Positions 52,743 through 55,517 of a stretch of 64,000 nucleotides of DNA are shown here, one piece after another. A program made the position numbers and the translations under genes. The notes below the pieces were generated by a model. That model was not told the origin of the DNA, searched no databases, and saw only the letters and a list, made by a program, of their open reading frames with translations. The DNA lies in assembly GCF_012910955.1 (NCBI RefSeq), contig NZ_WTVQ01000008.1, forward strand, positions 62,001-126,000, given 5' to 3'. Source of the DNA: Aromatoleum diolicum. Its GTDB lineage: Bacteria > Pseudomonadota > Gammaproteobacteria > Burkholderiales > Rhodocyclaceae. How positions within the stretch are numbered: the first letter of the stretch is position 1; the number at the start of each line of letters is the position of its first letter.

Positions 52743-54119
52743 TCATGCTTCCGTACTGTTTACCGTAGCACGCAGACGGCCGTTCGCGAGCTCGACCGAC
52801 ACTGCCTTACCCACATCCGTTTCTGTTGCCGACCGCAGAATGCGGCCTTCGGCATCACGCGTGATGCTGTAACCGCGTGCGAGCACCGCTTGGGGGGCCA
52901 GGTGCTGCAAGTGTGCAGACAGCGCCGCGAGCCGCTCGGTGCGCCGCTGCAGCAGGTTCTCGCCGGCCTGTCCAAGACGCCTTGCCGCCCGGGCGCAGCG
53001 CTCCATTTCGCGGCGGATGTCCGGTCGCCGCGCCTCAAGCCGCAGGCGCAACATCCGCTGCCCGGCAGTCAGGCGTTCCATGCGGCGCGCCATGGCTGCC
53101 GCGAGGCGCACCCCCAGGCGCTCGCTGCGCTCCTGCGCCTGCGCCAGCCGCTCGCGCGGATGGACGAGTCGCAGCGCCGCGCGGTCGAGCCGCTGGGCGA
53201 GCGTGTGCATGCGCCGCTGCATTGTCCCCGACAGCGTCTGTTCGAGCATGGCAAGGCGCCCGCGCGCAGCGTGATAGCCGGCACTCGCCAGCTCCGCCGC
53301 GCCGGTCGGCGTCGCGGCACGCACATCCGCGGCAAAATCGGCAATCGTGAAATCCGTCTCGTGCCCGACGCCGCTCACCACGGGCACCTCGCACGCACGG
53401 ATCGCCCGTGCCAGCGTTTCGTCGTTGAATGCCCACAGATCCTCGATGCTGCCGCCGCCGCGGACCACCAGCAGCAGATCGATACCATCTTCCAAGGCGC
53501 GCTCCGATGCCTTGCGCACCGTATTGGCCAGTCTCACTCCCGCGCCCTCGCCCTGGACCGGGGCAGGGTAGAGCACCACTTCCATATGCGGCGCACGGCG
53601 CCGCAGCGCCGCCAGCACGTCCTGCCATGCCGCCGCCGCCGGCGAGGTGACGACGCCGATACGCCGCGGGTAATGCGGCAACTCGCGCTTGAGTGCCGCA
53701 TCGAACAGTCCCTCGCCAGCGAGTTTCTCCTTCAGGCGCAGGAAGGTCTCGAACAGGTTCCCCTGTCCCGTCTGACGCAGCGCCTCGATGCCGAGCTGGA
53801 AGTCACCTCGCGCCTCATACAATGTGACCAGCGCGCGTGCATCCACCCGCATGCCGTTTTCGAGGCGAAAAGGCAGCAACTGGGCGCGATTGCGCCACAT
53901 CGTGCAGCGAACCTGCGCCTGCGCATCTTTCAGCGTGAAATACAGATGGCCCGACGGCGCGCGTGTCAGGTTGGAGATTTCACCGCTCACCCACAGCAGC
54001 GGGAAGCGTGCCTCCAGCGTTTCGCGAGCCAGCCGGTTGAGGGTCGACACACTCAGGATGCGATCCTGGTCGCGCCCGTTGTTCATGCCGTCCAAACTCG
54101 TGGAAAGATCGTTTTGCAT
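52743..54119 (-). CDS. xseA: Exodeoxyribonuclease VII large subunit
   Basis: 458 residues. An N-terminal OB fold (LLWVSGEISNLTRAPSGHLYFTLKD near residue 40) binds single-stranded DNA; the catalytic domain contains RIGVVTSPAAAAWQDVLAAL near 151, DLLLVVRGGGSIEDLWAFNDE near 204 and PVVSGVGHETDFTIADFAAD near 235; a long Arg-rich coiled coil follows and the C-terminus has VLARGYSITRD. It degrades ssDNA with XseB. ATG 54119 gives the family length; another ATG lies 33 bases downstream. No strong ribosome-binding site is visible. Divergent from exbB. Confidence 0.95.
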   Translation of the reverse strand: MQNDLSTSLDGMNNGRDQDRILSVSTLNRLARETLEARFPLLWVSGEISNLTRAPSGHLYFTLKDAQAQVRCTMWRNRAQLLPFRLENGMRVDARALVTLYEARGDFQLGIEALRQTGQGNLFETFLRLKEKLAGEGLFDAALKRELPHYPRRIGVVTSPAAAAWQDVLAALRRRAPHMEVVLYPAPVQGEGAGVRLANTVRKASERALEDGIDLLLVVRGGGSIEDLWAFNDETLARAIRACEVPVVSGVGHETDFTIADFAADVRAATPTGAAELASAGYHAARGRLAMLEQTLSGTMQRRMHTLAQRLDRAALRLVHPRERLAQAQERSERLGVRLAAAMARRMERLTAGQRMLRLRLEARRPDIRREMERCARAARRLGQAGENLLQRRTERLAALSAHLQHLAPQAVLARGYSITRDAEGRILRSATETDVGKAVSVELANGRLRATVNSTEA

Positions 54120-54423
54120 GGCGCGGATTGTAGCGGAATCCACAAGCACGACGGCTTGTCAATGCCGTCCTCAAAAAACCTTTCAATTCAAGCTTGTATT
54201 TATAAGTGTTTGTTTTTAAGTGAATATTTTGTTGCACAATTTTTCAGCAAAGTGACAAAAGGCTTGTGGCGACAGACCTTTCGGACACTCCCGGCGAAGA
54301 ATCCACAAACTTATCCACAGCTTTTGTGGATTCTTGTGCCGGGCGATGACATGGGACTGCGCTCTTGCCCTGCAGGCCCCCGGGCGTTAAAGTTCCGCCT
54401 TTGCCTTTGCGGAGTTTCATCGC
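54120..54423. promoter_or_regulatory. Divergent xseA/exbB intergenic region, AT-rich
   Basis: 304 bp. The part at 54168-54250 is unusually AT-rich for this genome (runs such as TTTATAAGTGTTTGTTTTTAAG). To its right is a long hairpin with a DnaA box (54290-54343). Promoters of xseA (minus) and the exbB operon (plus) should be here; no clear -35/-10 pair stands out. Confidence 0.6.
54290..54343. promoter_or_regulatory. Long hairpin carrying a consensus DnaA box
   Basis: AAGAATCCACAA (54297-54308) and TTGTGGATTCTT (54324-54335) form a perfect 12-bp stem, extended by CCCGGC (54290-54295) / GCCGGG (54338-54343) after a small interior mismatch. The 15-base loop contains TTATCCACA (54311-54319), a perfect DnaA box. 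The stem arms themselves contain 7-of-9 matches to the box (GAATCCACA and, inverted, TGTGGATTC). Confidence 0.6.
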
Positions 54424-55032
54424 GTGTTTGCGCTCATCCAGGCCTCGGGTTGGACGATCTGGCCTCTGTTGCTGGCATCCGTCATTGCGGTGGCCCTTAT
54501 CATCGAACGTCTGGTGACGCTGCGCAGATCCAAGGTCGTACCGTCGAGCTTGCTCGACAAGATTGTGGTCGATCTTCGCCAGAAGGGCGTGTCCGCAGAG
54601 ATGGCAAATCGCGTCGAGGCCCATTCGCCGCTCGGTCGCGTGCTGGCCGCCGGCTTGCGCAATGTCAACAGTTCGCGCGAGGTGATGAAGGAGTCGATCG
54701 AGGAAACCGGTCGCGCCGTGACGCACGAACTGGAGCGCTTCCTCACGACGCTTGGCACGATCGCATCGATCAGCCCACTGATGGGGCTGTTCGGCACCAT
54801 CGTCGGCATGATCGACATTTTCGCGTCGCAGGGTGCGGGCGGCGTCACCAACCCTCAACTGCTCTCACAGGGTATCTCGATCGCACTCAACAACACCGGC
54901 CTGGGGCTGATCATCGCGATCCCTGCCACCATTTTCTGGCGCCATTTCCGCGCGCTCGTCGACAGCTTTGTCATCGACATGGAGCAACAGGCGATCAAGC
55001 TGGTTGAAGTGGTTCATGGCGAACGCCGCTGA
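54424..55032 (+). CDS. exbB: ExbB/TolQ-type proton channel protein
   Basis: 202 residues with three membrane segments: ~10-30 (TIWPLLLASVIAVALIIERL), ~110-130 (FLTTLGTIASISPLMGLFGTIVGMIDIF) and ~150-170 (GISIALNNTGLGLIIAIPATIF). It forms the proton channel that energises TonB- or Tol-dependent processes with ExbD. The start is GTG at 54424, where the family N-terminus begins (MFALIQASGW); GGAG is 9-10 bases upstream. exbD follows after 12 bases. Confidence 0.92.
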   Translation: MFALIQASGWTIWPLLLASVIAVALIIERLVTLRRSKVVPSSLLDKIVVDLRQKGVSAEMANRVEAHSPLGRVLAAGLRNVNSSREVMKESIEETGRAVTHELERFLTTLGTIASISPLMGLFGTIVGMIDIFASQGAGGVTNPQLLSQGISIALNNTGLGLIIAIPATIFWRHFRALVDSFVIDMEQQAIKLVEVVHGERR

Positions 55033-55044
55033 TCGGGTGTGAGA

Positions 55045-55473
55045 ATGAATTTCCAGCGCGGCAGGCGTGAGGAGGCACCGGAGATCAACCTGATCCCGCT
55101 CATCGACATCATGCTGGTCCTGATCATCTTTCTGGTGCTCACGACCACTTTTTCGAAAGTGTCCGGCCTCGAGATCAACCTTCCGACTGCTGATTCCGAG
55201 GCGGCGCCGGACAGCGCGCCCGCCGAGATCGTTGTCGCGGTGAATGCTGCCGGTGACGTCCTCGTCAATCGGCAGCCCGCCGGTGGCAAGGACATCAACG
55301 CGATCGCCGCCGCACTCGGTCGCGCAGTGCCTGCGGGCGGAGGCGAACCGCCGGTCGTGGTGATCAACGCTGACGCCAAGGCCGCGCATCAAAGCGTAAT
55401 TGACGTGATGCAGGCGGCTCAGCGTGCCGGTCTGGGGCATATCACTTTCGCCATTCAGGCGCAGTCCCCCTGA
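55045..55473 (+). CDS. exbD: ExbD/TolR-type biopolymer transport protein
   Basis: 142 residues. A single N-terminal membrane segment, INLIPLIDIMLVLIIFLVL, holds the essential Asp21; the periplasmic domain follows (EIVVAVNAAGDVLVN, VVVINADAKAAHQSVIDVM). Partner of ExbB. A GTG two codons earlier (55039) is an alternative start. It precedes lpxK by 44 bp. Confidence 0.93.
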   Translation: MNFQRGRREEAPEINLIPLIDIMLVLIIFLVLTTTFSKVSGLEINLPTADSEAAPDSAPAEIVVAVNAAGDVLVNRQPAGGKDINAIAAALGRAVPAGGGEPPVVVINADAKAAHQSVIDVMQAAQRAGLGHITFAIQAQSP

Positions 55474-55517
55474 GGCGCCTCGCCTTGGGGCAAGAATTTC
55501 GTCGCCGGCGCTGAGTG

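Follow-up and report, generated by a model that had tools for sequence, protein, structure and literature searches.

The locus and its features

The window, that is, the whole stretch of 64,000 nucleotides analyzed here, comes from the genome of Aromatoleum diolicum (G000), a draft of 146 contigs and 5.15 Mb. The locus occupies a divergent intergenic region between xseA, which runs leftward, and a gene of the exbB/tolQ family, which runs rightward. The neighboring genes xseA, lpxK, kdsB, and adk all pass the NCBIfam cut-offs, whereas the genes listed as exbB and exbD match the TolQ/ExbB and TolR/ExbD models with scores under these cut-offs.

A direct scan of the sequence revealed a perfect hairpin in this region, with arms at 54297–54309 and 54323–54335, which are 100% complementary over 13 bp, rather than the 12 bp first reported. 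As the original prediction had stated, the 13-nt loop contains a consensus DnaA box, TTATCCACA, at 54311–54319, and each arm holds a 7/9 match to the box, GAATCCACA and TGTGGATTC, respectively. The AT-rich stretch that it had described on the left was also recovered, and the hairpin adjoins the 90-bp segment with the highest A+T content in the window (34.5% A+T overall): positions 54173–54262 have an A+T content of 73%, a value reached by just four of the 63,911 segments of this length, all of which start at 54170–54173. The features of the locus are as follows, where DARS denotes a DnaA-reactivating sequence, a type of element whose activity is known from E. coli.

52743–54149, minus strand: xseA, exodeoxyribonuclease VII large subunit (open reading frame as listed; in-frame ATG at 54119)
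54136–54144, plus strand: additional GAATCCACA, 7/9, a short way upstream of xseA
54173–54262, no strand: AT-rich accessory tract, on the box III side, which is the side of the flanking, regulatory region in the E. coli DARS
54203–54215, plus strand: putative site of IHF binding, TAAGTGTTTGTTT, with 8/9 to YAANNNNTTGATW and a start 96 bp to the left of box III
54230–54267, no strand: block that separates the IHF site from the core and is similar to one in the hemE–priA copies
54297–54335, no strand: perfect 13-bp hairpin formed by boxes I and III as inverted copies of each other; probably a by-product
54299–54307, plus strand: DnaA box III, GAATCCACA, 7/9, 3 bp from box II and in the same orientation
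54311–54319, plus strand: DnaA box II, TTATCCACA, 9/9 consensus
54325–54333, minus strand: DnaA box I, 7/9, separated from box II by a 5-bp gap, as in E. coli DARS1 and DARS2
54424–55032, plus strand: exbB/tolQ-family gene, the first gene rightward

Anatomy and rarity of the three-box core

The DnaA boxes were scored against TTWTNCACA. The consensus box is unremarkable by itself, given that the window contains three TTWTNCACA sequences, against 0.96 expected, and 8 of 100 shuffles contained as many, while the genome has 13 copies of TTATCCACA and 10 of the same pattern read in reverse. Boxes I and III of the window core score 7/9 each, a point against the DARS reading, and a random 9-mer in a sequence of equal base composition would score at least 7/9 with a probability of approximately 0.007 per partner position. 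The three-box arrangement, by contrast, is remarkable: boxes of at least 7/9 occur at both partner positions in only two of the 13 genomic copies of TTATCCACA. One of these is the window site, which reads GAATCCACA-5-TGTGGATAA-3-TGTGGATTC on the minus strand, and the other is a second core at G000:C104:19604-19629 (L141), located between hemE and priA, which reads CAATACACA-3-TTATCCACA-5-TGTGGACAA, with an 8/9 IHF match at -97.

The block that separates the predicted IHF site from the window core contains an 8/9 DnaA box at 54230–54238 and a weak Fis-like 15-mer at 54234–54248, with five of the six consensus positions. The AT-rich tract is visible by eye in all 17 rows of the genus in the core-oriented alignment, and the further GAATCCACA beside xseA in 16 of the 17, the remaining row (L017) stopping short. 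The first alignment of the genus, in which orientations were mixed (8 of the 17 rows lay opposite), was used by eye only, and the later alignment was oriented. At 54119–54160, this fourth GAATCCACA stands beside minus-strand TTGACA and TACAAT hexamers in the genus, with a spacing of 24 bp by eye, which is unusual for a promoter.

Conservation and genomic distribution

When both gaps were allowed to vary between 0 and 9 bp, the three-box pattern matched 260 of the 399 genomes of the order, representing 116 of 159 genera, and 215 of the 369 genomes of the class (171 of 272 genera), four of the 215 class rows being the genome itself or members of its order. The same pattern read backward, as a control, produced two hits in the order and one in the class. 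Gaps of exactly 3 and 5 bp were found in 131 of the 150 order-level matches listed, which are drawn from a longer set, and the next most frequent class accounted for 5 of the 150; three of the 19 other entries are second readings of a site with the 3/5 spacing. Among the loci that were returned, this geometry was present in 26 of 30 from the order and 25 of 30 from the class. A strict pattern was found in 187 of the 395 genomes of the family, and in exactly one copy in each of the 17 genomes of the genus.

Matches to the pattern with free gaps were absent from 139 of the 399 order genomes and 154 of the 369 class genomes, and the strict pattern was absent from 208 of the 395 family genomes, so in many genomes either the boxes have diverged or the element is lacking. 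Diverged copies do escape the strict pattern, as in the hemE–priA copies of G001, G002, G004, and G016, where box III is CTATCAACA.

The same geometry recurs in differing gene neighborhoods. The 51 returned loci with the 3/5 spacing comprise 15 at xseA/exbB, 12 at hemE/priA, and 24 elsewhere, to which a site between mutS and trmJ in G031 may be added. This last site (L096, 2391–2415) is the sole strict match in its genome. In the hemE–priA intergenic regions (L087, L090, and L078, for example), CTTGACTTATGCACA, an extra DnaA box of the consensus type, is found repeatedly near hemE, upstream of the core. Some genomes of the order also have several sites of DARS geometry within approximately 1 kb (L125/G738 and L116/G566), which may be arrays or origins.

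Recurrent placement of the IHF consensus

The IHF consensus was applied in a variant form, YAANNNNTTGATW, with a Y where PMC8682772 has a T. Of the 16 order loci that match at xseA/exbB, 13 entered the oriented alignment of the flanks, L100, L108, and L125 being dropped (as belonging to the genus of L099, lacking the 3/5 spacing, and containing several motifs, respectively). The alignment also took in every locus of the family (11), the genus (17), and the hemE–priA set (19), five of the last being from the genus itself. Two pairs, L065/L084 and L066/L086, are duplicate fetches, which leaves nine distinct family flanks and 18 distinct hemE–priA flanks.

A match of at least 8/9 to the IHF consensus starts between -96 and -99 from box III in 29 of the 40 distinct flanks (the xseA–exbB copies of the genus being left out), and all the other start positions of these flanks combined contributed nine such matches. 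In the genus, the xseA–exbB flanks have at least 8/9 at this place in 8 of 17 cases and at least 7/9 in all 17. The 8/9 match is thus missing here from 11 of the 40 flanks and from 9 of the 17 genus flanks. In the full set of 60 flank rows, 39 matches were seen, in comparison with 0.28 expected from dinucleotide shuffles, a statistic that should be read in the light of the kinship of the flanks within each locus type. Given this kinship, the agreement between two unrelated loci, xseA–exbB and hemE–priA, represents the more independent evidence. Near -99, two of the flank sets also score high for the consensus on the reverse strand, which makes the direction of the site less certain than its place.

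The flank on the box III side, where a DARS has its flanking, regulatory region, carries both an AT-rich tract and a conserved IHF consensus. A Fis-like 15-mer at -65 is weak, with a score that is unexceptional among the family and order flanks. The flank scan recognized no distinct cluster of Fis sites farther out than the IHF site, and beyond the genus set the Fis-like signal was faint and varied from flank to flank.

Partner genes and chromosomal position

The genome encodes Hda (233 bits), IhfA (150 bits), DiaA (52% identity), and Fis (45% over 71 aa, in a dusB-fis-purH order recognized by eye), which means that both the production of ADP-DnaA and the helpers of a DARS are available. In the 12 relatives computed, dnaA and the xseA–exbB copy are separated by 0.22–0.41 of the chromosome, and in the eight computed for the hemE–priA copy, this copy is 16–43 kb from dnaA. 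All of these relatives were picked because dnaA and the site share one long contig, and they have a common gene order, so they are not independent cases; in one of the 12 (G108), only xseA was recognized beside the copy. The skew around dnaA in G026 and G099 has shallow minima at 35–50 kb before the start of the record, which speak neither for nor against an origin at the hemE–priA copy. In the genome itself, the rpmH-dnaA intergenic region (L034, G000:C78) contains a single perfect DnaA box, and the position of oriC in the genus is not obvious.

Interpretation of the element

The anatomy of the boxes, the IHF consensus, their conservation, and the presence of the partner genes were all established computationally. 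Together, they make it probable that the element of the window is a DARS, most like DARS2 of E. coli, which would recharge ADP-DnaA to ATP-DnaA. Of the two activities that the original prediction had joined in a DnaA-titrating or reactivating element, the reactivating one is strongly supported by the geometry of the boxes, the near-fixed IHF consensus, and the wide conservation, and the titrating one, in the manner of datA, sits poorly with an IHF consensus located outside the trio.

In E. coli DARS, ADP-DnaA occupies boxes I–III, the molecules on boxes I and II make a head-to-head contact, and an IHF bend accompanies the loss of ADP and the uptake of ATP (PMC8682772, PMC5742627). By analogy, the binding of DnaA and IHF, and the exchange of nucleotides, may be expected at the present element. 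Read from right to left, its putative layout consists of box I, 5 bp, the inverted box II with the perfect consensus, 3 bp, box III, 83 bp, and the predicted IHF site in the AT-rich tract. The ADP-DnaA produced by Hda-driven hydrolysis would bind the three boxes, with the molecules on boxes I and II meeting head to head and those on boxes II and III forming a tandem pair. IHF would then bend the AT-rich side toward the core, ADP would be released, and the apo-DnaA would leave and bind ATP, raising the level of ATP-DnaA for the next initiation.

The element may instead be a divergent promoter controlled by DnaA, which, once bound, would tune the transcription of xseA and of exbB-lpxK-kdsB-adk in step with replication. 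The position of the site in a divergent intergenic region is compatible with this, as are the other copies upstream of priA and mutS, and the additional GAATCCACA just upstream of xseA in the genus. The proximity of the copies to the replication and repair genes xseA, priA, and mutS counts against the DARS reading, since promoters regulated by DnaA would be found beside such genes too. Tandem DnaA boxes 2–3 bp apart are, moreover, preferred targets of DnaA in E. coli, several of them upstream of genes for nucleotide synthesis, replication, and repair (PMC11317965). Given that tandem boxes are favored in general, boxes III and II alone could represent any DnaA target, so the position of box I was scored instead. 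At the inverted position 5 bp away, DARS1 and DARS2 score 8/9, and the other 10 E. coli double-box records score 2–6/9; the records examined are 12 of the 13 distinct double boxes in the table of PMC11317965 (all but that of rne), with none for dnaN. Within this small E. coli set, the two DARS cores alone have the inverted box at a distance of exactly 5 bp, which is the feature conserved in the present copies. The mark is not wholly clean, and counts to this extent against a DARS, in that a 9/9 inverted box lies 4 bp from the rpoH double box (L189), near the DARS spacing. The constancy of the geometry while the neighboring genes vary, the lack of the 5-bp inverted box in the 10 other records, and a simple scan of the locus that found no sigma-70-like promoter make a purely promoter-based explanation unlikely. 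Nevertheless, the element may serve xseA or exbB as a promoter in addition to acting as a DARS, because the E. coli DARS sites are themselves found upstream of uvrB and mutH (PMC11317965).

A cluster of DnaA boxes with an IHF consensus might also act as a sink or inactivation site, as datA does, by titrating DnaA or promoting the hydrolysis of its ATP. The likeness to datA is limited to the presence of boxes and an IHF site, given that the IHF site of datA lies between the boxes, and its effect on DnaA is the opposite (PMC5742627, PMC4585315), whereas here the consensus is found outside a tight trio with an inverted box I. The datA double box, for its part, scores 5/9 at the inverted position, and this function is very unlikely.

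A further proposal is that the hairpin itself is functional, as a cruciform, terminator, or structured RNA, with the DnaA boxes being incidental. The arms are perfect over 13 bp, and positions 54290–54345 fold as single-stranded DNA at -18.6 kcal/mol (z = -6.98), which none of 200 shuffles equaled; the window has three places with a perfectly inverted repeat that is 12 bp or longer and has a loop of 3–30 nt, the hairpin among them. The hairpin region had no Rfam match, however, and the terminator scan found nothing there. None of the 30 distinct arm pairs was identical over the 9-mers (the xseA–exbB copies of the genus being left out), and at the free positions the arms paired no better than when their partners were shuffled (P = 0.345; 0.011 for the family and order alone, and 0.895 for the hemE–priA copies alone). 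At least 7/9 of the DnaA box is retained by box III in 26 of the 30, and by box I in 27, figures to which the bases prescribed by the search pattern contribute. A function of the hairpin in any of these three forms is unsupported by the Rfam search, the terminator scan, and the arm-pairing test, and is highly improbable. Conservation of the hairpin was a check put forward in the original prediction, and the structure is apparently not the conserved feature. Judging from the sequences, it is probably a by-product of the resemblance between boxes I and III, which face each other as inverted near-copies, and probably lacks a separate function. An origin in a phage was rejected, given that a search of a phage collection returned no match to the hairpin region.

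The origin-like unwinding module envisaged by the original prediction, to which the boxes adjoining an AT-rich tract and the proximity of the hemE–priA copy to dnaA would lend themselves, is scarcely credible, given the distance of the window copy from dnaA in the 12 relatives, its position within the mostly positive-skew half in G013 (a noisy profile, sampled every 250 kb), and the presence of only two boxes of at least 8/9 within 53500–55500, so that oriC was rejected for this copy in the lack of both a skew switch and a DnaA-box array at the site.

The DARS family is already known. In the literature searched, which covered few subscription papers, no description was found of a DARS in the Aromatoleum lineage or at the xseA–exbB and hemE–priA loci. 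The core of DARS2 is conserved in gammaproteobacteria related to E. coli (PMC4245941), and a review passage mentions beta-proteobacteria, naming none (PMC5742627). The arrangement conserved in most of the relatives sampled suggests a replication-timing switch that is far more widespread than described. It is about evenly balanced whether DARS is a control element that is ancestral to the Beta- and Gammaproteobacteria and nearly general among them, its three boxes obeying a rigid code, and whether, in the present lineage, a hemE–priA copy near dnaA and an xseA–exbB copy at mid-arm, both with IHF at the same distance, would represent a position-dependent recharging of DnaA that predates the DARS1/DARS2 layout of E. 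coli. A strict sequence code, with candidates in 260 of the 399 order genomes, makes the restoration of ATP-DnaA testable outside the enterics, and provides many natural variants for the dissection of spacing, IHF phasing, and chromosomal position.

Comparison with known systems

The double boxes of polA, purH, nrdA, nrdD, rpoH, and mioC in E. coli are tandem and 2–3 bp apart, like boxes III and II of the window (PMC11317965), but lack an inverted third box at 5 bp, that of rpoH being at 4 bp.

The common structure of the DARS, that is, three boxes with equal spacing across the family and with box I opposite to boxes II and III (PMC5742627), is seen in the cores read from MG1655, which are TTATCCACT-5-TGTGGATAA-3-TGTGTATTA in DARS1 and TTATTCACC-5-TGTGGATAG-3-TGTGAAGAA in DARS2, and both are identical to the window core in the orientation of the boxes and in the two gaps, of 5 and 3 bp. 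DARS1 (core at 813107–813141) shares not only this geometry but also the identical perfect consensus in box II. It differs in its neighbor, uvrB, and in its flank, where no IHF consensus of at least 8/9 was found in the part scanned (best 7/9), and it is located at 0.33 of the chromosome from oriC.

DARS2 (core at 2969135–2969169) resembles the window in having an IHF consensus on the box III side and in the same direction, and lies at 0.21 of the chromosome from oriC, a position comparable to the 0.22–0.41 from dnaA of the relatives of the window copy (n = 12). Its neighbor is mutH, rather than xseA and exbB, and its boxes do not form the inverted near-copies that give rise to the hairpin of the window. 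The activity of DARS2 in E. coli needs the Fis sites FBS2-3, and the window, unlike DARS2, has no recognizable separate Fis cluster beyond the IHF site. A scan of 420 bp of DARS2 found TAATGCATTGACT (8/9) at -87, followed 3 bp on by an 8/9 IHF site on the other strand, two sites that fit the published layout of IBS1-2 (PMC4245941), together with an additional 8/9 match at -413. The IHF consensus thus starts 87 bp from box III in DARS2 and 96 bp from it in the window, a difference of approximately 10 bp, or about one helical turn, and in the experiments of Kasho (2014), shifting IBS1-2 by 10 bp farther from the core left moderate activity, while a shift of 5 bp left only partial activity (PMC4245941).
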